IMG/VR virus record: IMGVR_UViG_3300048691_000037
Coordinates: 1-44,110 of that record
Direction: 5' to 3' (one strand)
Origin: a virus
DNA: 44,110 nt
In this document: positions 6,601 through 34,197 of the stretch, in pieces
How the letters are laid out: each line of letters opens with the position of its first letter
Position numbering within the stretch: position 1 is the stretch's first letter
Notes under the pieces: model-generated
What the model saw: only the letters and a program-made list of their open reading frames with translations
What the model was told of the DNA's origin: nothing
The model's database searches: none
Made by a program: the position numbers and the translations under genes

Positions 6601-7013
6601 GTCTTACTTGTAACACGGATATTACCATTGATATTAAGTGCCGCATTTAATTCACGTCTAATATCATTACAAGCACTTCTTACTGTTTGTCTAGCTTGAT
6701 TCATTGCAGATGTTATATTAGAATTAAACTTAGTAAAGCTAACATCAAATGCTTTGTTTAACGACTTAGTGATATCTTTAGACATAGCCTCGAATTCTTT
6801 AGTTGTATCTTTTCTAGATTTCTTAACTAGGTTAAGAGTTGTTTTATTAATAGAAGTTAAACCGCTTTTAATGATTTTATTATTATCAGCCATAAGCTTT
6901 TTAGTAGCTTTAGGTCCTAATGCCTTATCTATGCCTTTAGTAACAGTTTTAAGCTGCTTATTAAGGTCGTCTAACTCAATACTAATCTTAATCTGTAATT
7001 CATCTAAATTCAT
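1..7013 (-). CDS. Tail tape measure protein, N-terminal part (continues across the contig joint into 41409-44110)
   Basis: This is the scaffold that sets tail length and is threaded through the tail tube. The start is ATG at 7013 behind AGAAAGGAG. The frame is open to base 1 and continues in frame at 43983, ending in TAA at 41409; joined, it is 9588 nt or 3195 aa. The first ~1700 residues are charged and coiled-coil-like, with duplicated blocks: GEGGPDSLGF occurs twice, followed each time by a related R-K-E stretch, and KKLISDLSKI occurs twice. A conserved tape-measure core rich in A, G and L follows (around 1550-1870), then an acidic linker (900-1130), then 77-residue repeats that run across the joint. 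No cell-wall hydrolase motif was recognised. It lies directly after the tail chaperones, as expected. Function is confident; the internal domain borders are rough. Confidence 0.93.
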   Translation of the reverse strand, partial: MNLDELQIKISIELDDLNKQLKTVTKGIDKALGPKATKKLMADNNKIIKSGLTSINKTTLNLVKKSRKDTTKEFEAMSKDITKSLNKAFDVSFTKFNSNITSAMNQARQTVRSACNDIRRELNAALNINGNIRVTSKTSISGSATGSSGSNAASSISSGQYIGAMIIKSTNAVIANNNANTTRLEHAIDNLGNKLTSAIKGININTNNDDVVKAINGLSKSLNKKGGYKVRRPQQQPQEVEENLPAAIPPETKAKPKKKIQMGTHSDGRPINYYKVDSGLFFTLEQLNHKVNFILGEVTDTGAFLKALQEALKQSVKATNRYNRFMDDISKSINIKRLGTGSYGNEIVKSNNKPGASINRNTSANRNKEYFTGEVVNPGIIPTQVSKQLQNIIEVSYRVLDLEKNVLKNTANFDIFGSGKLDTSQVDAMTQAFKDTHNIRKQSRIPRLNEPAEDYDASEFMVNELHRQVASLMDMAQELNEAFHQTPIGINEAVEQANFLEIALNGVLEGSKDLTSLSPQIAKGFEFARDVLNQMTPGIRALISEIQNFTKPQAPVGLPALEWQDINGSRPEFPDSVENIEFEWNEVNPEEKPQIPESAIIDVEWKDVDNVEEDITKVNKTLTETKKLISDLSKINPDFNSKDPRLSQAQQSISKMIDHIGPLKSSVAMPGSKNNPIKDTKKQGPSYVFTENEQEILDKLLNKPKIELDVDTTKTKKLISDLSKITPDLNAENGMEDYHRKQMSTILDANAGEVGAFTKNPRLEKFTADVEKLKSRLDEAADDLLEVVKLLDSASDVFNNLDKVDGKGLLGGLDDLDACEEILRQLSRTDLSHLNRDIKKLAESVSDANFDTSAIKKLQDRLTSLQQSRNRLSKIQKGASNKGIDNEALKTQARAIRDAGNVSFGEGGPDSLGFLPSFRKEVNALIEYAKKAGEKIKKALFGKSRNGSDELALTIDSSDAEKKLKEMQSKFAKANVRGKTDKNTASKLSDLKQVQNNFDFTNLEAAKKQVTKDTETVADAVSKTFKELSNDLEQTANEIKQQQKDKKNIRKVGQPLTQGKKQSKNNFDFTNKNELAMTIDPDGGLTQVLEELNANIDMLIIAIDDLNENITKLIGNTKIPTKGIKSFKKSSISNADEVDDTYEEQLDNLVPHAKDTGAEVKKALTTAITSGKVKLGKLKLEKPKSISKELNEIKEDIKSSVDNNDKGILNLTPCEDQLDDLASYAKSTGTKIKEALASAMIAGQLKLGSPNGSDKPVSEIEQKTPEYERYHKHEKAAEELTRQIEQTSDDTKKQSLKFKKAGEEMLASFFKPQAETGMNSFKNLLQRRILGFKIDRNNMPNKDAYYKASLKDEDGESRASKLHKDVETLKKVTSDIFGSFSKDLPKALPELEFDDRINGIKSIVKEFEKLKGALNALGEDLNDEKLSNAELGLDTSGLEEDERAIRDLLDVINDFNKALNKAKVFPKHMSTPQLETYARRAQLAGEVQYGEGGPDSLGFSAYRKELELLSKLGKKVGAGIRKALRGAFNVNVGPNKLDRALTVLGHSASSVANKIKTKMASVGTYLKAFGSVMAEPMKKSIRKMGQEFNYVPRLAKLGMNKTSALVKSYGSVIKSHLSKAFTGIKSNKLYTSVASGLSKAKSAISKFASSARPALSKVFDGIKLGGKVASGIKAGLSKAKAALSKFANGCKTLWGKIKQIFHKGASDASKATGKLTSGLKGLLGQILSFGSIYGLINLGRQAIQQSTTLAQAEIKLTSLMKHRMGATNETVTAIRQLIKEQANLGVVSETALTKGVEQLSMYVHSAKALETLMPAIANLTAKRGGFFATPEDAEEVATQIGEAIREGTITPLEQSGIYLSEAEIKKFQALRTEEERAAFLAQVIANNVGNINEALANTPLGAIAQLKNNFQSLMGTLGIFLANVLKPIVQWLNTIIVACNNALKALGNLLGFDMTGGALSVGDVGAGTGSTDIDTGGIDDTKDSLDETADSAEKAEEAVEKFKGSLMGFDEINVLSDNTGSDSSEEFDPTDITPGEGGQLIPDVGELTEGEGPFDKFADKMKAFMDEILEPFKAAWDLLGDRWKAEWADLIDSFKHFCDSLGKFLKSVWEHGGKEFVQHMAEIGLACGIAAMEIGGEILDSLARLWDHLDPAKNMNTQGYLDALNEVSVKTRDFILGLGDHFESLMANGGQDVLNALGDCFMNLGEAAVRGFGVAIDALDGLIDHLDPANNENTKNMLQAWANTFHDIGQMALDFVSLLESCLVNGGQDMINAFGDMAMNIDQAAAEVVSTVANTVSELSKHLDPANNDITRNMMKAWEEAFKSIGDMALSFSSFLK

Positions 7014-7115
7014 TGTGTATCTCCTTTCTATGTATTAGTTTTGGGTGTTTTATAGTGGAAAAATGGTTAAAGCCTTGTAATACCAACGCCTCTGTTTGTT
7101 CCAAACAGCGTCGGC

Positions 7116-7155
7116 CCAGTAATAAATACATTATTATATATGTATTATTTACTGG
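7116..7155. repeat. AT-rich palindrome, copy 1 (shares a 22-bp core with 24019-24072)
   Basis: The outer arms CCAGTAA and TTACTGG are perfectly complementary and the inner arms nearly so, giving a 15-bp arm with two mismatches around a short AT loop. The 22 bp at 7125-7146 are identical to 24035-24056. It lies in the 289-bp gap between the chaperone and tape-measure genes. A separate 7-bp hairpin (CTGTTTG/CAAACAG, loop TTC) sits beside it at 7092-7108. Function unknown. Confidence 0.8.
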
Positions 7156-7260
7156 TTTGTGGATGTTTAAATAAGCTAGGATCCAGTCATATCAATGTCT
7201 TTATTGATCTTATCGCACACTTTTTCCCAAGTTTTAAACATACACATGATTTGTAATAAT

Positions 7261-7305
7261 AAAAATGGGCCAATATACTTTGTTTAATAGTACATTGACC
7301 CATTA
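7261..7305 (-). terminator. Likely terminator after the tail chaperone genes
   Basis: On the minus strand AATGGGTCAATGTAC pairs with GTATATTGGCCCATT over 15 bp, followed by TTTATTATT. The two imperfect positions are G-U pairs on the minus strand but A-C mismatches on the plus strand, so the minus-strand RNA is the selected one. It overlaps the chaperone stop codon and would separate chaperone and tape-measure transcription, at least partly. Confidence 0.7.
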
Positions 7306-16946: not shown

Positions 16947-18083
16947 CTAAATTCTATCATCATCAACATTATATATTGTAAATATTATTTTCCCATCTTG
17001 TAGGGAATCACAAGTACCTATTGTTTGTGGAATAACTTTTGCAACAACTTTATCGTCTACACCTAGACAACGATTAAATATCATGTCTATTGTAGCTTTG
17101 AATAAGTTATCTGTATCAAATCTTTCAGGATGAATAAAATTAAGTTCTACTATAACTGATTTAGGAGCAAAGACAATTCCTTTTGATTCAAAATATTCTC
17201 TTGTTGGTATTTGATGACGAGGAAAGTTTTTTATCCACCAATTATATGCAGGAGTTCTATGTTCATCTTTATACATGCAATTTAAGCTAAATGGTGCAAA
17301 ATCTACTGTTATCCATTCTCTCTCAGGGTTATAATATTCTTCAAGTTCTTCTGCATACGTTTTCCAATGTTCTAATTCGTCTCTTAATTCTTGTTTATCT
17401 TGTTCTGCTTTGTTTATTTGTTTAGTCATACCAGATTTAATACCGCCATTTCTTTTATTTGATAATCTAGTAATCTCACCTTTTATTTCAAGCATTACTT
17501 CTTGATACATAACAACTTCATATGTTTTCATTTCTAAATTGTTGTTAGCTATATAGTTTTGTAATTCATCTATTATAATCTCACAGCGTTTAATTCTATC
17601 TTCATTATTTATACGGTGGGCATCTCTTTCTATTTTTGATAACTCTTTAAATTCGTTCCAGGTATTTATAAGATTTGTTGTTTCTCTAAATGTATTTCTA
17701 ATACGTTTTATACCATACTTATTTTGATAATCTATTGCTTCTTGTGTAGCAGATTCAGTTATATATACCCCACATTGTCTTAACTGTGGTAATACTTCTT
17801 CCATCACCCATTCTTCAAATTTCTCTGCTTCTGGTAAATGTGAACCAAATATCAATCTATAAACATCCGACTCAGGTATTATATTCATTTGTTGCTCAAA
17901 CCCAGTAATATCAAGGACGGGATGTTTCATCCCGTGCTTACAATGTCTTGATATTGCTTTATGAGGTTCTTTATATCCTAATGCTTCTGCAATATCTTTA
18001 CCTATAAAATATATTTTTTCATCTATTACTAATGTTCTTACTTCCCCAAATAAATCATTATTAAAAGTTATTATATTATTCAT
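16947..18083 (-). CDS. BRO-N domain fused to a RusA-like Holliday-junction resolvase
   Basis: This is a 378-aa two-domain protein. Residues 1-115 form a BRO-N antirepressor domain (FGEVRTLVIDEKIYFIGKDIAEALGY, later FEEWVMEEVLPQLR). A helical, charged linker follows (about 120-245). Residues 250-378 resemble RusA: VIVELNFIHPERFDTDN with D323, D325 and N326, then K329 and D343 in LGVDDKVV, the positions of the catalytic acids in RusA. RusA cuts four-way junctions during recombination or before packaging. BRO-N is normally joined to KilA-C or ANT domains, so this partnership is unusual. Its start overlaps the upstream gene by 8 nt. Confidence 0.75.
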   Translation of the reverse strand: MNNIITFNNDLFGEVRTLVIDEKIYFIGKDIAEALGYKEPHKAISRHCKHGMKHPVLDITGFEQQMNIIPESDVYRLIFGSHLPEAEKFEEWVMEEVLPQLRQCGVYITESATQEAIDYQNKYGIKRIRNTFRETTNLINTWNEFKELSKIERDAHRINNEDRIKRCEIIIDELQNYIANNNLEMKTYEVVMYQEVMLEIKGEITRLSNKRNGGIKSGMTKQINKAEQDKQELRDELEHWKTYAEELEEYYNPEREWITVDFAPFSLNCMYKDEHRTPAYNWWIKNFPRHQIPTREYFESKGIVFAPKSVIVELNFIHPERFDTDNLFKATIDMIFNRCLGVDDKVVAKVIPQTIGTCDSLQDGKIIFTIYNVDDDRI

Positions 18084-21442: not shown

Positions 21443-23362
21443 TTAACAAACTTTTATATATATAAATGTATTTGAATCATATTCTGTTGGAATACCATAT
21501 TGTTTTCTAGTAGCTTTATTAACTCTAACTCTAGTTATTAGACCTTCTTGTTTAAATGTTGGAATAAAATCTAAGACAACTTGTTCTGCTTGTTTTTTAG
21601 TGATATGTTTTTTATCTGTATCACGATATGCTTTAGCTAGGTCGGATTCATTAAATAAGTTATTATTGCTTTCTAATAAAGCATCTAATACATTTCTAAG
21701 TTTTGTTTCTATTTTATTTTGTTTTTTAGTATCAACAGTTGCTTGTACATTAATAGTTGTTAAAACTTCTTCAGCGCCGAATGTGTTTATTCTTCTATTT
21801 ACATTGTTACCTTTTTGTCTTACATAGTTATCTTCCATGTGTTGTATTCTATCTTGTATTTGTGCTATTACAGATGGAGAAAGATCCACTAACTCATAAA
21901 AATCTACTCTGTTTATATCTTTACCTAATCTTTGTTTTAATGCTTCTCTTTGTTGATTAGCATTAGTTAAGGCATCTTTTCTTATTTCTGCATTAGTTAA
22001 TTTTCTTAGGAAGCCTAACTCACATAATATAGTTAATTTTTCTCCTGCATTACCTGATATAAAGTTTAGTTTCATTTCTTCTTTTAATGCTCTTTTACCT
22101 AAGAAGAATACTACTCTATCATCATCAGTAGATAATGAACTATAAGTTATATGAGCATCTGCAAAGTCTATTATTAATTTATATACTCTAGTTAGTTTTC
22201 TTCTGTTTAAATAGTTTTGTAAATCTTCTGGAAGTATTTTATTTACGTTTCTTCTAAGGTCTGCTATATATCTTTCAGTATTTTTTTGATATTCTGAGCC
22301 AAAAGATATATTTAAAGCATTTAATATCATCATTTTAACTTTAACTTCTGACATGTCTAATAGTTTTGATAATAATGTTATTAATCTATATCCACAAGCT
22401 TCACATGAACAGAAGTACACTTGTTCTTCTCCATCAGTAGCTATTCTAGCAGATGGGTTATTATCTTCATGGCTTGGTAATATGCATCTAAATCTAACGT
22501 TTTCTTCTATGCCTAACACGTCTGTCATTTTAACATGTTCATTTATCCATTTATATGCTTCGTTTATATCTAATTCTTGTACATCTGCATATTGTTCTTC
22601 CATAGCTACTAAGTTTTCTAATACAGTATCTTTATCTATTTCTATTGATTCATAGTTAGTATCTTTTACATTTGATGGTTTAGTAGTTTTAGGTGCTTGT
22701 CCTATTGCTTTAACTACTGGAGTTTCATTTATAACATTATTGAAGAATGATAACGCTTTCCCACCGAATAATATTTTTCCTGGGTCTACAGATGCATCTA
22801 TATCAACTGTAGGATATTGTGCTTTAACTTCTTCATATAATGCTACCATTTCATTATAATCAGTTATAATTCTATCAAATGCGAATACGACTCTATATCT
22901 TTGATGTTCTTCTGTACTACTGAAAGTTTCGTATATGAAACATGGTTGATATTTGTGTTCAAGTGCCATAAAGTCTTCTATTGAAGTATAGCTTTCTTTA
23001 TTATCTATATCTAAAGCAACTAATGAAGATGATACAAATGAACCATTATTAGTATCTGATAAAACAGATGCTTTCCAGCTGCGTCCATTAACTGCTGCTT
23101 GTGCTAAATCTTTTAATATTATAGTTTGTTTGCTTTGTGGTAATCTTTTAGTTATTGCAGCTATTGTTTTTCCTGCTGGTTTTTCATTGTAGCATACTGA
23201 GTCAACTAATACTTCTACTTTAGATGCTTGTAATGCTTCTATTTCATCAAGTTGAGCTAATAATCTTTGTGTTAATGCTTTATCTGATTCAGTTAATCCT
23301 GAACATTTTCTTGGTTGATATCCTTCTAATAAACTTTCTAGTACTTTTTGATTTAAAAACAT
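21443..23362 (-). CDS. Primase-like replication protein (AEP-type N-terminus, CHC2-type zinc finger, C-terminal winged helix)
   Basis: This 639-aa protein is the only clear replication gene. The start is ATG 23362, the better of two ATGs after AAAGGAG. Residues ~60-220 resemble archaeo-eukaryotic primases of mobile elements: VALDIDNK gives the hhhDhD motif, then ETFSSTEEHQRYRVVFAF and a late IDASVDPGKILFGG. Residues ~280-330 form a CHC2-like zinc finger (RCILPSHEDNNPSARI ... YFCSCEACGY). The middle is helical and unassigned, and the last ~90 residues look like a winged helix. There is no helicase domain, so the host replisome would be needed. It has an unusually long leader upstream. Confidence 0.65.
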   Translation of the reverse strand: MFLNQKVLESLLEGYQPRKCSGLTESDKALTQRLLAQLDEIEALQASKVEVLVDSVCYNEKPAGKTIAAITKRLPQSKQTIILKDLAQAAVNGRSWKASVLSDTNNGSFVSSSLVALDIDNKESYTSIEDFMALEHKYQPCFIYETFSSTEEHQRYRVVFAFDRIITDYNEMVALYEEVKAQYPTVDIDASVDPGKILFGGKALSFFNNVINETPVVKAIGQAPKTTKPSNVKDTNYESIEIDKDTVLENLVAMEEQYADVQELDINEAYKWINEHVKMTDVLGIEENVRFRCILPSHEDNNPSARIATDGEEQVYFCSCEACGYRLITLLSKLLDMSEVKVKMMILNALNISFGSEYQKNTERYIADLRRNVNKILPEDLQNYLNRRKLTRVYKLIIDFADAHITYSSLSTDDDRVVFFLGKRALKEEMKLNFISGNAGEKLTILCELGFLRKLTNAEIRKDALTNANQQREALKQRLGKDINRVDFYELVDLSPSVIAQIQDRIQHMEDNYVRQKGNNVNRRINTFGAEEVLTTINVQATVDTKKQNKIETKLRNVLDALLESNNNLFNESDLAKAYRDTDKKHITKKQAEQVVLDFIPTFKQEGLITRVRVNKATRKQYGIPTEYDSNTFIYIKVC

Positions 23363-23413
23363 AATTACCATTCTCCTTTAAAATTAAATTTGTTGTATAT
23401 ATATTTTTTATTT

Positions 23414-23703
23414 GGTAAGAATAATCTTAACTAGAATATGCGGTATAAGATACCTCCGTGTCAACGTTCCCTGTAATGTCTTACCTTAATCCTAAAATCT
23501 CTCTGTGGATTATGGCGAGATTGCAATTATATATGATTCGGAATCTCTGGATTCATTAGCTACTCTTACTTCCATCGTTGACTTTCACTAGGCCCAATGC
23601 CCGTCCCTCAGTCTAGGTTTCATTTGTTCTAAGCAATCACTGTTCTATTCATATAATGTTTTGCTAGGTCCCTCGCTTTTAGAACCAAGGCTCACAGTGG
23701 ATT
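23414..23703 (-). ncRNA. Structured RNA candidate upstream of the primase (leader element or ncRNA)
   Basis: This ~290-nt stretch has clearly more G/C than its surroundings and many complementary segments: 23694-23703 with 23635-23643; 23541-23545 with 23550-23554 (tetraloop); 23507-23512 with 23487-23492; 23479-23485 with 23414-23420 enclosing the 23442-23454 hairpin. Several nest as expected for one folded RNA. Within the AT-rich genome this is typical of a structural RNA. No riboswitch, intron core or tRNA was recognised. Confidence 0.45.
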
Positions 23704-23980
23704 GTTGTTTCTCTATTCTAATTCTTTATTACCTCTTACATTTATAATATATACATGTGATATGTACTTGTTCGTTATTTTTGGGATTATTTTAAATTTA
23801 TTTTTGATAGACATTAGTATTATCAATGACTGTAGCCTATTTAAATCTCTAAATGTCCCTTACATCTATTAATATATTACTCATGGGAATATCTGTATTG
23901 CATATTGTAATAAAAATTTATAAGAATTGTATAAATCCAGCGTGATTTTGGGGAATTATTGATGTGAAAATGGGCTAAGA

Positions 23981-24115
23981 ATGGCTTGATTTCAATAGGT
24001 TGAGTGTTGTCCAAAATCCCGCTAACCGTTAAATAATACATTATTATATATGTATTTATTATCGGTCAGCGGAGCTTCAAACAATAGATAAATGGCTTGG
24101 TTCCAATGGGTTGAC
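23981..24115. repeat. Direct repeat pair flanking the palindrome
   Basis: 23981-24004 and 24092-24115 share 20 of 24 bases. Three of the four differences are transitions, and two of these compensate: TTGA-TT-TCAA in one copy and TTGG-TT-CCAA in the other, so each copy keeps its own small dyad. The palindrome lies between them, 14 and 19 bp away. Confidence 0.65.
24019..24072. repeat. 54-bp palindrome, copy 2 (shares a 22-bp core with 7116-7155)
   Basis: The outer arms begin CCGCTAACCG and end CGGTCAGCGG, pairing with one G-T; inner AT arms pair with three mismatches. The 22 bp at 24035-24056 match 7125-7146 exactly, while the outer arms of the two copies are unrelated in sequence but still self-complementary. 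Confidence 0.8.
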
Positions 24116-24201
24116 GTATCTTTCCTCATATAAATTTCCCATCTTTGAAGATACGCTTGTCTAATAATAATAGTAATACTGCATTAACTTTTAAATCCTT
24201 T

Positions 24202-24230
24202 ATAATAGTAAATCGTACAACCAATAACAA
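24202..24230 (-). promoter_or_regulatory. Promoter-like sequence for the primase leader
   Basis: On the minus strand TTGTTA, 17 bp, TATTAT (4/6 and 5/6 matches to the vegetative consensus). Transcription would start near 24195, giving a leader of about 830 nt before the primase start. Confidence 0.4.
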
Positions 24231-24299
24231 TCAATACTACTTGGATTCACGGTGGTATTAGCGTAAATGATATATTGGTCTAAGCTATGCTAACCCATG

Positions 24300-25673
24300 C
24301 TATATGTTCAAAAAAATATCAGCTTCGTTAGTATCTGATACTTCTACTCTATTGATTAACATATGGAGTATTGCTTTCTTCTGTGCAATATTAGCTGTTT
24401 GATAAATTGCTTTAGCATTAAGGATATTAGCTATCAAAGCTTCATGATAATTAGTTTGTTCCTGCAATGCTTCTATATCTTTGTTAACCTTATTTAATTG
24501 TTCTTCCAGTTCTGTTAATTCATTTGTTATGTTATGAATCATTGTACTAACTGCATTAATAGTGGTATCAGGAGCCCCATTTAGAATATACCCTTCAAGC
24601 TTTGATTGTGCTAGCTGTACAGCACGCATCTTAGATGAATGGGTATTGGTAAGCTCACGTTGCTTAATGTTTAATACAGCTTGTTTTTTAGTACATCTTG
24701 AGTTGTACTTTTCTAATAAGGCATCATGATTCAGGCTATCAAGAATCTGTAGGACTTGTTCTTCCAGATAAGCATCAAGTCTTTTGCCGCTAAAGCTTTT
24801 CTTGATAGTACTTCCATTACCTCTACATGCTTTGCATCTGTAGACGTGTGCCTTGGTTTTATATCTGTAATCTCTATTTAAATACAATCTACTTTGGCAA
24901 CATTTATGATACAGTAGACCTTCGAATAAGATGTCTGTTCTGTTTAATTGATTAGCTGAAGAATTAGACCTGCATTTTCTTGATTCCCTAACTTTATTCG
25001 CACGGTTAAATAAATCATCACCTACTATTTCTTTTAACATTGGATGCGATATTCTATCAATCAGGGTTTTTCTGTTACGTATATTATACTTCTTTTGTAC
25101 GTATGAAGAAGAGTGGTGGATATAATCTTCAAACATTTCTATTATTTGTGGTGCTAGTTCTTCATCTATTATTGCATATCCATCAATTAACTTGTATCCA
25201 TAAGGTATAGTACCAGATGCCCATTTACCTTCAGCTCTTAGTTTAGCATGCGCACTCTTGACACGTCTACCTGTTTCTATACTACTTTGTTCTGCCATCC
25301 AACCTTTGAATGCATTAAGTAATCTGTCAATGTCATGTGCATTTAAAATAGTATTCTCACTAACTGAATGAACTTTAACATTATGTTGGGTGAAGATATC
25401 CATAACAGTTTGATATTGTACCATTCTTCTACTGATTCTTGATGATTCAAAAATAAATAGGTTTGCTACTTTATCTTCTTGTACAAGGTGTAAAACTTCT
25501 TGTATGCCAGGTCTTTGTTCTACATCTAATTTAAATCCACTTAAACCTTCATCAGAAATATATTTATCAATAGTCATATTGTTTCTGGCGGCGTATTCAT
25601 TAATGGATTTAACTTGATGGTCAGTATCTTGTTCTGTACTTGAGCATCTTGTATAACAAATATTAATCCTCAT
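24300..25673 (-). CDS. Large serine recombinase (putative integrase)
   Basis: This 457-aa protein has an N-terminal catalytic domain with the YTRCSS motif (likely nucleophile S11), IFESSRISRR and the following helix to GRRVKSAHAKLRAEGKWASG. Next comes the recombinase domain TIPYGY, a zinc ribbon (LLYHKCC...HVYRCKACR), a long coiled coil (about 310-420) and a C-terminal strand. It is the usual plan for phage integrases, at the short end in length. It would join attP and attB sites. Start behind AAAGGAGGAGCCAGAC. attP is expected just upstream, in 25765-26200, but cannot be proved here. Confidence 0.85.
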   Translation of the reverse strand: MRINICYTRCSSTEQDTDHQVKSINEYAARNNMTIDKYISDEGLSGFKLDVEQRPGIQEVLHLVQEDKVANLFIFESSRISRRMVQYQTVMDIFTQHNVKVHSVSENTILNAHDIDRLLNAFKGWMAEQSSIETGRRVKSAHAKLRAEGKWASGTIPYGYKLIDGYAIIDEELAPQIIEMFEDYIHHSSSYVQKKYNIRNRKTLIDRISHPMLKEIVGDDLFNRANKVRESRKCRSNSSANQLNRTDILFEGLLYHKCCQSRLYLNRDYRYKTKAHVYRCKACRGNGSTIKKSFSGKRLDAYLEEQVLQILDSLNHDALLEKYNSRCTKKQAVLNIKQRELTNTHSSKMRAVQLAQSKLEGYILNGAPDTTINAVSTMIHNITNELTELEEQLNKVNKDIEALQEQTNYHEALIANILNAKAIYQTANIAQKKAILHMLINRVEVSDTNEADIFLNI

Positions 25674-26067: not shown

Positions 26068-26118
26068 AAATGATTAGCTTAGTCTCACTCGGAGCAAAGA
26101 CAAGCCACACAATCATTT
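26068..26118 (-). ncRNA. Nested 51-nt hairpin, structured RNA candidate
   Basis: AAATGATT and AATCATTT form a perfect 8-bp outer stem. Inside, GCTTGTCT pairs with AGACTAAGC over eight pairs with one bulge. It lies between the lysis terminator and the recombinase. No tRNA or known riboswitch was recognised. Confidence 0.4.
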
Positions 26119-26207
26119 GATAGCTTGCTTTTATTAGATATGACAGCAGTAACTCTTTATAACACTCTTTTATAGGTTTGGAGATACTATGCCTATCAAC
26201 AAATAAA

Positions 26208-26230
26208 GGGCACGCAGTTAATGCGCACCC
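26208..26230 (-). terminator. Terminator of the lysis/late operon
   Basis: On the minus strand GGGTGCGCA pairs with TGCGTGCCC over nine positions including two G-U pairs, followed by TTTATTT. On the plus strand those two positions would be mismatches, so minus-strand RNA is favoured. It lies ~100 bp after the amidase stop. Confidence 0.75.
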
Positions 26231-26265
26231 TATTTTTATGTCTGTGGTCGGTGTTCAGACAATTG

Positions 26266-26288
26266 TTCAGAAAATTTAAATTTCTGAA
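26266..26288. repeat. AT-rich perfect hairpin after the endolysin gene
   Basis: TTCAGAAA and TTTCTGAA form an 8-bp stem around a 7-nt AT centre, 40 bp after the amidase stop. It may be an mRNA 3'-end structure; there is no U-tract of its own. Confidence 0.5.
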
Positions 26289-26327
26289 TACTTGTGACAG
26301 ACCAGTATTTCCAACGGTTTCAGCCGC

Positions 26328-27083
26328 TTATAGCTTTTTAACATATTTACTACTCAAACTAATCCAGCCCAGCTTTGATTTTAAAAGTCCCATATTGTTC
26401 TTAACCTCTACTATGGTAAAGACTTCACCACAATGGACTTGTCCTACAACTTTAGAATTATAAGATGCATTCTCACGGATGTTTAACCCCTCTGCTCCAT
26501 CATATATAATTTTTACTTCAAATGAATCATCAGTAGCTTGTGCAGGTACAGATTTATTAGATAAACCCTCTGCAATTAGTTTAGCAACCTTATCAATATT
26601 ATTTAAATATATTCTTGCATCATCTTTATCATCTACAAAACATACTTCTATTAAAATGGAAGGACATTTAGTATACTTGAGCCAGTAAAGACCTCTAGTA
26701 TCTTTTTTGCTACCTCTATCTTTAAATAATGTAGATAGTTTAGCATTAACTCTATCTGCATATACTTTACCTTTACTAGAAGCATAATAAGTTTCTGTAC
26801 CTGTAGTATTACCATTTGGATCCGTGGAACCTGCATTAAAATGTAATTGTACAACTACATCGTAGGTACCCATATTGTTAGCTTTATCTACTTGTTCTTT
26901 AAGGTAATTTGATGTTCTAGGTTTATCGTGTTGTATATAATCTGCATCAACACCTGCAGCTTTTAAATATTGTACTACTTTCGGACCTAATCTTCTTGTT
27001 TCATTAGATTCATTTATATATTTAGAAGCACCACTTCCTACATATCCGTTCTGCGAGTGACTAGCCATAATCAACGCCTTCAT
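26328..27083 (-). CDS. N-acetylmuramoyl-L-alanine amidase endolysin with C-terminal SH3-like domain
   Basis: This 251-aa protein cuts the amide bond between MurNAc and the peptide in the host wall for lysis. Amidase_3 features are H9 (ASHSQNG), an acidic ligand in NESNET, H81 (VQLHFNAG) and catalytic E146 (SILIEVCFVDD). Residues ~186-251 form a bacterial SH3-like wall-binding domain (GLNIRENASYNSKVVGQV). There is no signal peptide, so release depends on the holin. The start overlaps the previous stop as TAATG. The dipeptide HS replaces the more usual HGG. Confidence 0.88.
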   Translation of the reverse strand: MKALIMASHSQNGYVGSGASKYINESNETRRLGPKVVQYLKAAGVDADYIQHDKPRTSNYLKEQVDKANNMGTYDVVVQLHFNAGSTDPNGNTTGTETYYASSKGKVYADRVNAKLSTLFKDRGSKKDTRGLYWLKYTKCPSILIEVCFVDDKDDARIYLNNIDKVAKLIAEGLSNKSVPAQATDDSFEVKIIYDGAEGLNIRENASYNSKVVGQVHCGEVFTIVEVKNNMGLLKSKLGWISLSSKYVKKL

Positions 27084-28364: not shown

Positions 28365-28435
28365 AGTTTGTGTCCTACATATTTGAGCATATCGGCTTCG
28401 TCAACTCGAAGAGAACATAGGCTTTGTAGGATCAT
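28358..28435 (-). CDS. Possible 25-aa micro-ORF
   Basis: ATG at 28435 opens MILQSLCSLRVDEADMLKYV and runs to TAG inside the terminator stem. Composition looks protein-like but the ribosome site (GAAAG) is weak, and TCCTACA/TGTAGGA also makes this stretch a hairpin, so it may be RNA structure instead. Confidence 0.25.
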   Translation of the reverse strand: MILQSLCSLRVDEADMLKYVGHKLD

Positions 28436-28458
28436 TAATGAGCTTTCTTTATTTTTAG

Positions 28459-28533
28459 TTAGTCACGCTCTATGACTAAATCAACAATTGAACTTTTTTT
28501 CTGCTCGCGTTCTACGAGCAATTTTCTTATCAT
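28459..28533 (-). CDS. Possible 24-aa micro-ORF overlapping a hairpin pair
   Basis: ATG at 28533 opens MIRKLLVEREQ and ends LVIERD-stop. There is no Shine-Dalgarno site. The same bases form two hairpins with nearly equal loops (TAGAACG at 28501-28517, TAGAGCG at 28459-28479). Coding status is doubtful. Confidence 0.2.
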   Translation of the reverse strand: MIRKLLVEREQKKSSIVDLVIERD

Positions 28534-28548
28534 GTCGTAGAAATTAAT

Positions 28549-28716
28549 CTATTGTTCTTCTGGTTCAATATATTCATCTTCTGGTATTTCTTTATAGTTT
28601 TCTGGGGAATCATAAATACCTAGATATAATAATTTTGCACCATAACCATCTGGTCCTACTAATATCATCCCTTCTTCTGCTCTTAATTCTGTAAGAGTTG
28701 TTTCTTTCATTTTCAT
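28549..28716 (-). CDS. Unknown small protein after the LRR tail gene
   Basis: This 55-aa protein starts best at ATG 28716 behind AAGGACGGTG, with short overlap-type spacing to the upstream LRR gene. It is acidic, with a beta-like middle (GMILVGPDGYGAKLLYLG) and a PEDEYIEPEEQ tail. No family recognised. It could be a small baseplate or fibre accessory. Confidence 0.5.
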   Translation of the reverse strand: MKMKETTLTELRAEEGMILVGPDGYGAKLLYLGIYDSPENYKEIPEDEYIEPEEQ

Positions 28717-28733
28717 ATTATCACCGTCCTTAT

Positions 28734-29717
28734 CTATGCTAGTGTCCATCCTTTGTTTGTCGCTATTGCTTTTTCTTCATTTGTTAGTTTCGCTAGATTA
28801 GTTGTACCTAATGTTAACTTAGTTGTTCTTGTTACTGTGGCTAGATTATTAATAATACTCATTAATGAATCGTGTGTTAAATTAGTACACGTATTAAAAT
28901 TAAAAGCCGCATTGATATTCTTAGGTGCTTTAAAGTCTGTTAATGCTTTACAACCATTAAATGCACTAGTAACAGAAGTAACCTTGCCGACATCCCAACC
29001 GCTTAAATCTAACGATGTTAAAGTACAACTAGCGAATATATTCCCCATACTAGTTACTTTACTAGTGTCCCAATTACTTACATCTAATGATGTTAAACCA
29101 GTACAAGAACCAAACATATATTGCATATTAGTTACATTGCTAGTATCAAAATTACTTAAGTCTAATGATGTTAGACCGGCACAAAGGTAAAACATATATT
29201 GCATATCTTTAACATTACTAGTATCAAAATTACTTAAGTCTAATGTTGTTAGACCGGCACAACCACGAAACATATATTCCATATTAGTTACATTGCTTGT
29301 ATCGAAACTGCTTACATTTAATGATGTTAAAGTACTGCAACCATGGAACATATAACTCATATTCGTCACATTACTAGTGTCCCAACTACTTAAGTTTAGT
29401 TTTCTTAAAAGCATACAACTATAGAACATATACTTCATATCTTTAGCTTGGCTGGTATCAAAATTACTTAAGTCTAATGACATTAAGTTAGAACCATAAA
29501 ATAAATAAGAATAATCAGTGCTATAATTTGTTGATACATTCCACCAATATTCATAATAAGCATTGTCTCCACCACTATTGGATTCAATAGCATTTATTTT
29601 AGAAGGATAATCGGCGAAAACAGTATCCTCTGGAACTTCAACACCTTTACCTATAATAGCTTGACGTATAGCGGTCTTAGTCTGTAGAAGCTTGTTAATT
29701 TTATTAACAACGCCCAT
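28734..29717 (-). CDS. BspA/DUF285-type LRR tail protein, cassette 3
   Basis: This 327-aa protein begins with a phage tail-fibre adaptor ([20 protein letters not shown], then VFADYPSKI) and then seven 26-residue repeats of the form LTSLDLSNFDTSNVTNMxYMF-x-x-C, with a C-terminal cap (from about 245). These DUF285/BspA repeats are usually in adhesins of Mollicutes and gut bacteria; here they probably bind the receptor. The start overlaps the BppU-like gene stop as TAATG. Confidence 0.75.
   Translation of the reverse strand: MGVVNKINKLLQTKTAIRQAIIGKGVEVPEDTVFADYPSKINAIESNSGGDNAYYEYWWNVSTNYSTDYSYLFYGSNLMSLDLSNFDTSQAKDMKYMFYSCMLLRKLNLSSWDTSNVTNMSYMFHGCSTLTSLNVSSFDTSNVTNMEYMFRGCAGLTTLDLSNFDTSNVKDMQYMFYLCAGLTSLDLSNFDTSNVTNMQYMFGSCTGLTSLDVSNWDTSKVTSMGNIFASCTLTSLDLSGWDVGKVTSVTSAFNGCKALTDFKAPKNINAAFNFNTCTNLTHDSLMSIINNLATVTRTTKLTLGTTNLAKLTNEEKAIATNKGWTLA
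29030..29480 (-). repeat. 78-bp coding repeats of the LRR domain
   Basis: Near-identical blocks such as TATCAAAATTACTTAAGTC recur every 78 bp (26 codons), e.g. at about 29147 and 29225. The high DNA identity compared with the older LRR genes suggests recent expansion or gene conversion. Confidence 0.8.
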
Positions 29718-30655
29718 TATTCAATCACCTCACCATTAACATCATCTAGCAAAGCGCCTATATCTCCTATAAGATTATCTACATATTCTTTAGTAGCATA
29801 ACTATCAAGATTAGGAACTTCACCTGGATCTCCTTTATCACCTTTTTCGCCCTTCTCACCTTGAGGACCTTTTAAAGCAGCTAATTGTTCTGGTGTAAAC
29901 ATATCATAAGTAAAGTCTTTACCGTCTTGTCCATCAATACCATCTTTACCAGTAGAACCTTGTTCTCCTGGGTCGCCTTTTTCTCCTTGTGGTCCAACTT
30001 CTCCTTGTATACCTTGTTCCCCTTGAGGACCCATAGGACCCATTCTTCCTTCTGGCCCTTGCTCTCCTTGTGGACCTTGTGGACCAATTTCACCTTGGAT
30101 TCCTTGTTCACCTTGTGGACCAACTATAGCTAATTTATCAGCATTGGCATCAATATAATCATTAACCATTTGCTCCATATTTTCATCAAGGTTTTGCACT
30201 TGATTTATAAGGTCAAGTAGTATTGGATAATCTGGGTCAGATTCTATTTCTTCATCATATTGATTAAAGATACTGTCAGTTACACGATAATAAAATGAAC
30301 CAGAAGTTAATGATTTGTCTTCACAAGATATAACTAGCTCACATTTGTATTTGCCTATCTGGTCTACAAGCTCTGGAGTAAGTTTAAATTCAAATGCGGC
30401 GTTTTCACCATCAATAAGAATTGCATCAATTTCTCTATACTCGGAAGTCTTAGGTTTAGTTGCATAGAGTTTTAAATTATAATTAGCACTGTTATCTATA
30501 GGGTTTACTTCTACAGGATACTTAGAATAATCACTAGTAACTACTGTACAAATAATATTAGCCACATTATTATCAGTTATGTTAAAGTATAGACTGTCAA
30601 TACAACTAACAGAGCCATTAGATAAATCGAGTGTAATATTATAATCTCTGTTCAT
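29717..30655 (-). CDS. BppU-like baseplate protein with collagen-like repeats, cassette 3
   Basis: This 312-aa protein starts at ATG 30655 (AAAGGAGCG). Residues 1-130 form a BppU-like N-terminal domain ([13 protein letters not shown], later [11 protein letters not shown] and FYYRVTDSI). Collagen-like Gly-X-Y runs occupy 179-247 and 263-279, separated by [14 protein letters not shown]. The C-terminus [17 protein letters not shown] matches cassette 2. The collagen part should form a trimeric rod joining baseplate to the LRR partner. Confidence 0.75.
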
Positions 30656-30686
30656 TTGTTTCGCTCCTTTCATCATGATAAATAAT

Positions 30687-30726
30687 ACGTGCGAGAAGCT
30701 ATGTTTAACTATGATTCTCAGCACGT
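30687..30726 (-). promoter_or_regulatory. Leader hairpin before the BppU-collagen gene
   Basis: ACGTGC-GAGAA pairs with TTCTC-A-GCACGT (11 bp with one bulged base). It lies about 30 bp upstream of the start codon and could protect the mRNA or modulate translation. A small GGGT/ACCC hairpin is at 30740-30751. Confidence 0.45.
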
Positions 30727-30794
30727 ATGAAAGAATTGCGGGTATTCACCCACTTAATAATCTATTGTTGCTTATTTAAGATTTGTAAAAACTC

Positions 30795-30865
30795 AACGAT
30801 GATACCCATATATCTTAAGAAAGAATATTATTATTCTTGTTTATAGTATTGTGGGTATCATCGTT
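30795..30865 (-). terminator. Long-arm terminator between cassettes 2 and 3
   Basis: AACGATGATACCCA and TGGGTATCATCGTT are perfect 14-bp arms around 43 nt that hold an inner hairpin (30821-30838). On the minus strand GAGTTTTT follows. A second hairpin lies at 30886-30904. Confidence 0.6.
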
Positions 30866-30922
30866 TGATTTAGTCATTATTACAACTTCAATAAAGTATT
30901 GAAGGAACCAAGCGGCCCCTTC

Positions 30923-32128
30923 TTATTTAACATTAACAAATTCCCAACCGTCTGGTGCTGTTAGTTTGCCCACATTTTCTTCTAAGCAGTAAATCTTACG
31001 TGTTTCACCCCAATTATCTTCTGCTTCACCAGTTGGGAAACTAAATGACTCAATAATCTTTCTAATAGTATCTTCATTACAGTTGTCTAGTCTTAACGTG
31101 TGAAGTCTTCTGCAATTATTTAACATCCATTCAGTATTACAGTCTTCTCTTATCTCGAAGCTACTTAAATTTAATTCTTTTAAGTTTTCGCATTCAGAGA
31201 ACATATCATACATGCTCTCAACATTACTAGTGTTAAAGCTGCTTAGGTCTAATGATTCAAGACTTCTACAACTATAAAACATATTATTCATAGTAGTTAC
31301 ATTACTAGTATCCCATTCGTTGATACCATTAATAGTTCTTAAGTTTTCACAATTAGAGAACATATCACTTAAGTTATCATGTTCTTTTGTTACCATAACA
31401 TTAACTTCTTCAATGTCTCTGTTATCACGGAACATATCAGGTTGGTATAGTGGTATTTCTTCTTTTGGAGCAATAACTTCACCAGTAAAACAGTCAACAA
31501 ACTCCCATCCATCAGGAGCTGTTAAATCAGCTGCATATTTTGGCGATACCCACATTTTTCTTGTTACTTCAATTCCTTTCTTATCAATCCATACTAAACC
31601 AGTTGGGAAACCATATGCAGTTATTACTTTCTCAAGGTTATAATTTTCACAATTGTCTAATCTTAAAGTATGTAATGATGAACAGTCTCTTAGCATACTC
31701 GTCATAGACTTTATAACTATTGGGTCGTAATTTCTTATATCTAAGTATTCTAAAGCAGTACAACCATCAAACATATTAGACACGTTAGTAACATTATCAA
31801 AAAACCAATTGCTTAAATCTATCGAAGTTAAGTTTTTACATCCAGAGAACATAAAAGCCATATCAGTCACGTTGCTAGTATTCCAAGTATTAAGATCAAA
31901 ACTTTCTAATGAATCACCTAAATAACCGTAAAATAAATATCTATAATAAGTATGATTACTAGTTCTTAATGAAATGTAATCAGGTCCGCTTATTTCTACT
32001 ATTTTATTAGGATAATCAGCGAAGACTACATCTTCTCCAACCTCTACACCTTTGTCAATGATAGCTTTTTTAATGGCCGCTTTTGTTTCTAGAAGTTTGT
32101 TAAGTTTGTCAGTAGTAGTACCCATCAT
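30923..32128 (-). CDS. BspA/DUF285-type LRR tail protein, cassette 2 (internally duplicated)
   Basis: This 401-aa protein has the same adaptor start as cassette 3 (KLNKLLETKAAIKKAI, VFADYPNKI), then two related halves. Each half has LRR repeats, then LHTLRLDNC, a SFPTG or GFPTG motif and an ending DGWEFV (once at ~215, once at the C-terminus). The joint (about 215-245, FTGEVIAPKEEIPLYQPDMF) is unlike the repeats. The start ATG overlaps the upstream TGA. Confidence 0.75.
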   Translation of the reverse strand: MMGTTTDKLNKLLETKAAIKKAIIDKGVEVGEDVVFADYPNKIVEISGPDYISLRTSNHTYYRYLFYGYLGDSLESFDLNTWNTSNVTDMAFMFSGCKNLTSIDLSNWFFDNVTNVSNMFDGCTALEYLDIRNYDPIVIKSMTSMLRDCSSLHTLRLDNCENYNLEKVITAYGFPTGLVWIDKKGIEVTRKMWVSPKYAADLTAPDGWEFVDCFTGEVIAPKEEIPLYQPDMFRDNRDIEEVNVMVTKEHDNLSDMFSNCENLRTINGINEWDTSNVTTMNNMFYSCRSLESLDLSSFNTSNVESMYDMFSECENLKELNLSSFEIREDCNTEWMLNNCRRLHTLRLDNCNEDTIRKIIESFSFPTGEAEDNWGETRKIYCLEENVGKLTAPDGWEFVNVK

Positions 32129-32766
32129 ATCTCCTCCCCATTAAGGTTGTCTAATATGGAATTAATATCACCTATAGCATCTTTAGTTGCATAAGTAATA
32201 GAATCAGTTACTAGATAATCTATAGCTGTTTCTACTTTGTTTAGTTTACCAGAAGTTATAAGGTCTCCATCAATCCACTCAGTTTTTAAATACTGCCCAT
32301 TTTCTAAATCTCCAACAGGTACATCTGATTTATTATCAATAGCAGAATAATTACTAGCAGTAGCTCTACCTGCATAAGCCGCAGTATCTTGAGGTACACC
32401 TATAGGATTTTTAACTTCAAAGCTAAATGGTGCTATAGTTATACATTCATCATTTGGATTGTCGCTATAAAGTTGTAATTGTATCTGATAAGTACCAACT
32501 TCTCCAAGGTGGTCAGTCCAAGTATCATCAAGATACAGTACATATACACTATCAACAATATCAGTTATAGGTGTAGTAGAAAGTTTTTTATTAGGTCTAA
32601 GGATAATGGCTCTAGCTTTAGTTATTTCATTAACTAGGTCATATGTATCAGGAGATTTAAGAGTTATGTTAAGTGTAATACCTCTATCATATCTGTAAAG
32701 TATAATATTTTTATCTAGGGATACATTAGTATCCGTGATAGTAAGTGTTAAATCACGAGAAATCAT
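32125..32766 (-). CDS. BppU-like baseplate protein, cassette 2
   Basis: This 213-aa protein begins MISRDLTLTITDTNVSLDKN, closely matching cassette 1, with the BppU-type beta domain (IILRPNKK, YQIQLQLYSD, FSFEVKNPIG) and a linker with LNKVETAIDYLVTD before IGDINSILDNLNGEEI. No collagen part. It is one of only two genes here ending in TGA, inside an ATGATG overlap. Confidence 0.75.
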   Translation of the reverse strand: MISRDLTLTITDTNVSLDKNIILYRYDRGITLNITLKSPDTYDLVNEITKARAIILRPNKKLSTTPITDIVDSVYVLYLDDTWTDHLGEVGTYQIQLQLYSDNPNDECITIAPFSFEVKNPIGVPQDTAAYAGRATASNYSAIDNKSDVPVGDLENGQYLKTEWIDGDLITSGKLNKVETAIDYLVTDSITYATKDAIGDINSILDNLNGEEI

Positions 32767-32796
32767 TATATCAGTCCTTTCTTTTGTATTAAAATA

Positions 32797-32820
32797 AGGA
32801 CGCGTAATGAGCCGCGTCCT
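32797..32820 (-). terminator. Terminator between cassettes 1 and 2
   Basis: AGGACGCG and CGCGTCCT form an 8-bp stem with an 8-nt loop, followed by TTATTTTAAT on the minus strand. It directly abuts the stop codon of the upstream LRR gene. Confidence 0.75.
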
Positions 32821-34197
32821 CTAGTCTACATATTCAAATTGCCAGTTTTCAGGAGGTGTTAATAAACCTTCATAATCTCGTTTTACGTATATTTTACGTA
32901 TTACACCACTAATTGAACGAGTTGGAAAGTATTGTGATGTTATAATTTTATTAATTGTATCAATATCACAGTTATTAAGTTTTAATGTATGAAGTTTGTG
33001 GCATCCAGTAAACATACCTTCTGTATTGGTTACATTATTCATATCAAAATTACTTAAGTTCAATATTTCTAAAGAACTACACATAGTAAACATTCTATAC
33101 ATATTAGTTACATTATTAGTATTAAAATTACTTAAGTCTAATGATGTTAAATTAGTACAATAATTAAACATATTACTCATATCAGTTACTTTATTAGTAT
33201 ACCAGTTACTTAAGTCTAGTGTAGTTAAATTATTACAATTCATAAACATAGAACTCATATCAACTACATTATGAACAGACCATCTACTTATATCTAAAAT
33301 TGTTATGTTACTACATTCAAAAAATATACCATTCATATCAATAACTTTATTTGTATCAAAATTGTTTAATGCTAATGAAGTTAAATTGCTGCAACTAAAA
33401 AACATACTACTCATATCAGTTACATTCTCTGTATTAAAGCTACTTAAGTCTAATGATATTAAGTTCCTACAGTTATCAAACATACCTTTCATAGTAGTTG
33501 CACTACTAGTATTCCAATCATTTAAATTTAATGAAGCTAATGATATACAGTAGCTAAACATATACATCATATCTTCAACACTAGATACATTCCAATTACT
33601 TAAGTCTAATTCAGTTAAAGATTCACAATTATTAAACATATGGCACATACTAGTTACATTCTTAGTACTTAAACCATTTGGAATAAATGTATTTAAAGAG
33701 CTGCAATTATAAAACATATTACTCATATCTGTAATACTAAGTGTATTCCAGCTACTAGTATCAACAGATGTTAAATAACAGCAGTTTTTAAACATATCGA
33801 ACATAGAAATAAAATCAAATGCACCACAATGTTTTACTGTTTTTATAGGTGAACAAGGCTCTGCTTCAAAGAACTCAATTTTAGTAGTAGCTTCTGGGTA
33901 CCAAACTATAACTCTTTTTATGTCTTTACATAAGACCGATGTATCAGTAGTTGTGGAACCATCATTAAGTGTTATTTCAATTTCTGTGAAATAATCATAA
34001 GAGTACCCGTTTTTTGTATGAATGCAAGGTAATCCATAATGTGAATCTAAAGAAGAACGAAGGCTTATGTCTAGAGGTTCAACAGTATATTCTATGCAAA
34101 ATTTACTATAATAAACATAATATCCATTGTATTTTATAGAATGTATTTCTCTATCGTTAAAATGGCCGCCTAAACATATATCTCTGTCTAATCTCAT
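32821..34197 (-). CDS. BspA/DUF285-type LRR tail protein, cassette 1
   Basis: This 458-aa protein is the longest LRR member. It starts with a different N-terminal domain of about 130 residues (CLGGHFNDREIHSIKYNGYYVYYSKF), then ten or eleven 26-residue repeats (LTSLDLSNFNTNNVTNMYRMF type), and a C-terminal cap with LHTLKLNNCD, YFPTRS and PPENWQFEYVD like the cap of cassette 2. Probably a receptor-binding tip. Its start overlaps the upstream TGA. Confidence 0.75.
   Translation of the reverse strand: MRLDRDICLGGHFNDREIHSIKYNGYYVYYSKFCIEYTVEPLDISLRSSLDSHYGLPCIHTKNGYSYDYFTEIEITLNDGSTTTDTSVLCKDIKRVIVWYPEATTKIEFFEAEPCSPIKTVKHCGAFDFISMFDMFKNCCYLTSVDTSSWNTLSITDMSNMFYNCSSLNTFIPNGLSTKNVTSMCHMFNNCESLTELDLSNWNVSSVEDMMYMFSYCISLASLNLNDWNTSSATTMKGMFDNCRNLISLDLSSFNTENVTDMSSMFFSCSNLTSLALNNFDTNKVIDMNGIFFECSNITILDISRWSVHNVVDMSSMFMNCNNLTTLDLSNWYTNKVTDMSNMFNYCTNLTSLDLSNFNTNNVTNMYRMFTMCSSLEILNLSNFDMNNVTNTEGMFTGCHKLHTLKLNNCDIDTINKIITSQYFPTRSISGVIRKIYVKRDYEGLLTPPENWQFEYVD

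Follow-up and report, generated by a model that had tools for sequence, protein, structure and literature searches.

A G/C-richer noncoding segment ahead of a primase-like phage gene: a possible structured leader in a control region

The DNA analyzed here (the window) is the full 44,110 bases of IMGVR_UViG_3300048691_000037, a single virus record that begins and ends with the same 127 bases and is a complete phage genome. The minus strand carries the phage's main genes, and the presumed tape measure frame (2,345 codons, minus strand) crosses the junction between the end and the start of the record. The phage is probably temperate. A gene for a Bro-N antirepressor is found at 16947-18083 and an integrase gene is present too; no repressor gene was recognizable among the phage proteins scanned. 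Three proteins encoded on the minus strand within 28734-34197 carry DUF285/BspA-like 'MSxMF' repeats, identified by eye from the translations, and are probably tail fibres.

The integrase, a serine recombinase, and a primase-like protein are encoded in the same orientation on either side of a 928-nt gap (Table 1). When the primase-like protein was aligned with its relatives, a weak match to the DnaG-type CHC2 zinc ribbon was seen in two members of the alignment, and a search of solved structures yielded none that was related; a primase identity is plausible from these comparisons. No ORF longer than 56 aa was found in the gap, and its six-frame translations had no match in PHROGs better than E 0.14, a scan on which a decayed gene was rejected.

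Table 1. Positions of the features in and around the gap between the integrase and primase-like genes.
Feature	Position	Strand	Description	Support
Serine recombinase/integrase	24300..25673	-	upstream of gap	Pfam Resolvase 9e-26; phrog_95 integrase 2.1e-58
Noncoding gap, 928 nt	23372..24299	-	between serine recombinase and primase-like gene	ORF and protein-family scans
Primase-like gene	21443..23371	-	downstream of gap	mainly phrog_25531 (PHROG with unknown function), 1.2e-42
Candidate structured leader	23404..23753	-	segment 23414-23703 of the sequence-only reading plus closing helix	G+C 35.7%, minus-strand purine 60.3%
Closing helix, 5' arm	23714..23739	-	GTAAGA, GTAAT, AATTAGAATA	pairing probability 0.87-0.98
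Closing helix, 3' arm	23415..23438	-	TATTCTAGTT, ATTAT, TCTTAC	pairing probability 0.87-0.98
Inner 14-bp helix, 5' arm	23678..23691	-	several G-U pairs	mean pairing probability 0.77
Inner 14-bp helix, 3' arm	23483..23496	-		mean pairing probability 0.77
Perfect palindrome GGTAT-AAG-ATACC	23442..23454		sole exact copy in genome	
Imperfect palindrome, 54 bp	24019..24072		strongest fold in gap, 300 nt outside 23414-23703	
24-nt direct repeat, copy 1	23980..24003		flanks 54-bp palindrome	88% identical to copy 2
24-nt direct repeat, copy 2	24091..24114		flanks 54-bp palindrome	

The primase-proximal third of the gap, 23414-23703, had been described in a sequence-only reading as a G/C-richer, multi-helix RNA. 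The noncoding, G/C-richer segment is real: its G+C content is 39.7% versus 31.1% for the genome, a value reached by 1.0% of 290-nt windows, and complementary stretches exist within it. The pairing, however, does not rise above chance there. Measured against dinucleotide shuffles, the fold of exactly this segment has a z-score of +0.67 for the minus strand, where 108 of 150 shuffles are equal or better, and of +0.37 for the plus strand, where 97 are. In a regression-based scan of the whole genome, 200-nt windows sliding over the segment gave z-scores between -1.1 and +2.5, which are average to poor, and the outliers of the genome lie elsewhere.

A predicted fold signal appears on the minus strand when the span is widened by approximately 10 nt at its low-numbered end and 50 nt at its high-numbered end. 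For 23404-23753 the z-score is -1.9 (4 of 150 shuffles as good), and for 23390-23770 it is -2.25 (4 of 100), with values of about -0.5 for the plus strand. The span would be closed by a 21-bp helix in three parts (6+5+10; 23739-23734/23420-23415, 23732-23728/23425-23421 and 23723-23714/23438-23429), predicted for the minus strand only, whose end lies ~40 nt ahead of the AAGGAG ribosome-binding site of the primase-like gene. Base pairs that span at least 200 nt number 39 on the minus strand versus 17 on the plus strand, a difference explained in part by four G-U pairs among the 39. At least 39 such pairs turned up in 3 of 250 shuffles and in 6 of 291 other regions of the genome (p about 0.01-0.03), for all of which the window offset was optimized in the same way as for the candidate; since the wider span was picked after the fold had been seen, the long-range pairing signal is suggestive only. 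We consider the predicted closing-helix signal on the minus strand to be marginal, and 23404-23753 to be a possible structured RNA. An inverted-repeat mobile element was rejected as an explanation: the arms do not pair without mismatches and G-U pairs, and inside the closing helix the best inverted repeat at the DNA level is 10 nt long.

Base composition bears on the same span. Its minus-strand purine content (60.3%) compares with 59.5% in the primase-like gene and 57.5% in the integrase gene, versus 49-55% in the rest of the gap; this purine loading fits, as indirect evidence, a minus-strand transcript that runs into the primase-like gene. No convincing promoter was identified ahead of 23404-23753, and a scan of the gap showed no intrinsic terminator-like site. 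Promoter-like sites in the gap number 8 for 6.9 expected, with no enrichment over shuffles. The best of them (TTGACA, 18 nt, CATATT; 23464-23435, minus strand) matches at 10 of 12 positions and lies inside the candidate leader, with the perfect palindrome of Table 1 in its spacer. Sites of this strength occur 33 times genome-wide, and we therefore place little weight on it. Judging by its sequence, the palindrome could form an RNA hairpin, or could equally serve as an operator at the DNA level.

The 54-bp palindrome and its flanking repeats (23980-24114) adjoin the serine recombinase gene, where they could serve as a recombination, operator or origin site. The AT-rich core of the palindrome is repeated in a noncoding stretch at about 7120-7160. 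A 250-nt paralogous element at 7039-7281 at first appeared significant; once the core was masked, the score was 19 versus up to 22 for shuffles, leaving only the 30-nt palindrome core, and we discarded the element.

Rfam 15 at gathering score gave no family match in the region of 23414-23703. At E values up to 10, the scan returned mir-991 (on the 24019-24072 palindrome), snoR16, drum, HIV_GSL3, STnc430 and CRISPR-DR38, all far below their gathering scores and implausible. On these two scans a known RNA family, introns, ROOL and GOLLD included, was rejected, and they bear out the earlier statement that no class could be recognized; there is nothing by which to rename the segment as an intron or tRNA-like element. 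The same reading had brought up ROOL and GOLLD, two classes of large RNA from Firmicutes phages, a resemblance that finds no support, neither having been reported for the region at E values up to 10. The candidate shares with them a noncoding, phage-borne nature and the prospect of a multi-helix RNA. However, at about 350 nt it is much smaller than these RNAs of 600-900 nt (a ROOL example measures 659 nt and many GOLLD RNAs exceed 800 nt), both of which are often close to tRNA islands (PMC12286853), whereas ARAGORN found no tRNA in the window; nor does the candidate have an Rfam match or an extensive fold beyond chance.

We also looked for homologues of the region itself. The gap gave nothing related in blastn searches of phage and plasmid collections, and only two short, AT-rich chance matches in the genomes of three bacterial orders (385, 249 and 385 genomes, two of the sets overlapping). 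Four exact patterns matched 0, 3, 8 and 21 stretches of viral contigs, all 32 in unrelated sequence, and a 26-mer had no match in genome contigs. No close relatives were found in viral contigs through the primase-like and integrase proteins. The portal protein has one relative (77%), on an 18.9-kb fragment that has no match to the primase-like gene or the gap. Two distant primase loci, obtained with a fragment query, displayed no notable similarity to the gap. Because these searches are limited to the collections named, with exact patterns detecting close relatives only, their negative outcome does not count as evidence for a unique RNA.

Relatives of the primase-like gene were identified by tblastn at about 22-28% identity on Staphylococcus and Bacillus plasmids and in a few phages; others occur in a Sedimentibacter prophage and, at 21-38%, in scattered Clostridia and Bacilli genomes. 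The Staphylococcus and Bacillus plasmids that carry relatives are phage-like, one of them having a ParA gene, which hints at phage-plasmids. In nearly every readable relative (about 22-41% identity), -18 to 163 nt separate the end of the preceding ORF from the gene. Two loci (L119 and L132) have longer upstream stretches than the other readable relatives, and the first of these, also widened as L134, bears no notable similarity to the gap. Upstream distances thus disfavour a long leader as a conserved trait of the primase-like family, within a comparison in which all relatives are distant and a lineage-specific leader would escape. Two related Staphylococcus plasmids carry 0.9-1.4 kb with no annotated gene immediately ahead of a two-gene unit that includes the primase-like gene. 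These stretches would be consistent with a control region or an origin, but they contain short reading frames and no sequence similarity was noted.

The sequence-only reading had proposed either a regulatory leader of the primase or a stand-alone ncRNA, and a leader is possible. As a leader conserved throughout the family it is disfavoured by these distances, but the marginal closing helix confined to the minus strand, the raised G+C, the purine loading and the position directly before the gene speak for it locally. We tentatively propose, at somewhat less than an even chance, that 23404-23753 forms part of a temperate phage's early/replication control region, as an untranslated leader of ~350 nt. 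A minus-strand transcript would start near 23750 and run into the primase-like gene, its leader would be closed by the long-range helix, and it would act in cis, for instance by adjusting the amount of RNA polymerase or the number of ribosomes that get to the gene; transcription, helix formation and any regulatory effect are what we infer here. The HK022 put RNA, which consists of two short hairpins, offers a likeness of description, with no match of sequence or structure claimed, in that the candidate would likewise head an early operon and act in cis. According to one source, put RNA works in cis as an antiterminator on the early transcripts of the phage (PMC9378689).

The reading that assumes least is a cis leader or control region of the replication operon, and a serious rival is an element that works as DNA. 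The 928-nt gap would then be a replication origin and/or the operator-promoter of the early operon, with palindromes and repeats as protein-binding or strand-opening sites. Indeed, the clearest signals of the gap are DNA-like, namely the 54-bp palindrome with its flanking 24-nt direct repeats, to which the perfect 13-bp palindrome within a promoter-like site and the unannotated stretches of the two Staphylococcus plasmids can be added. Yet the 54-bp palindrome lies 300 nt outside 23414-23703, the genome has 33 sites as strong as the promoter-like one, the DnaA box TTATNCACA has no match in the window (3.6 expected), and origin activity is not something that a sequence by itself can reveal. We consider this explanation possible but rather unlikely. 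The locus does resemble an ordinary integrase/early operon boundary of temperate phages in where it lies, in being noncoding and in having palindromes and direct repeats; it differs from such a control region in having no recognized repressor gene alongside and in the unexplained composition of its G/C-rich segment. The lack of a recognizable repressor, the deviating G+C, the missing fold signal at 23414-23703 and the absence of homologues would also agree with an unconstrained or recently acquired spacer, left over from sequence replacement at the integrase/replication boundary, the usual site of the repressor module in temperate phages. Against this stand the six-frame PHROGs scan, which gave no trace of a decayed gene, and the fact that useless DNA of 900 nt is rarely retained in phage genomes, and we judge such a spacer unlikely.

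A further alternative is a new class of structured ncRNA that would stand alone, be made from the minus strand and act in trans. It would account for the G/C enrichment in an AT-rich genome, the predicted minus-strand closing helix and the lack of an Rfam family. Nevertheless, the fold is just marginally above chance, no terminator was found, none of the collections searched holds a homologue, and the segment abuts the primase-like gene downstream. A new ncRNA class thus has little positive support, and we regard it as very doubtful. Most improbable of all would be a new class of ~350-nt structured phage RNA that is closed by a long-range helix and governs entry to the replication operon in a temperate phage without a recognizable repressor. 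Should the leader that we favour be real, it would represent an RNA-level control point of phage replication that stands in for the repressor region usually seen. On the present evidence, the segment is to be taken as an ordinary control region and not as a demonstrated new RNA; the locus is worth checking once close relatives of the phage are sequenced, and no general conclusion hangs on it.

Other parts of the genome carry predicted structured elements. Rfam gave a match to 6A RNA (RF02925) on the minus strand at 28433-28483 with 53.3 bits (gathering score 41.2), in noncoding DNA that has the holin gene on one side and the gene at 28549-28749 on the other. The 290-nt noncoding gap ahead of the tape measure gene (7010-7302) has a predicted minus-strand fold with a z-score of -4.8, composed of several hairpins that include an AT-rich palindrome sharing its core with 24019-24072. 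By its predicted fold, this gap is a better structured-RNA candidate than 23414-23703. The strongest fold of the genome in the sliding-window scan (26101-26350, minus strand, z -4.0) adjoins the endolysin gene and is probably a terminator region.
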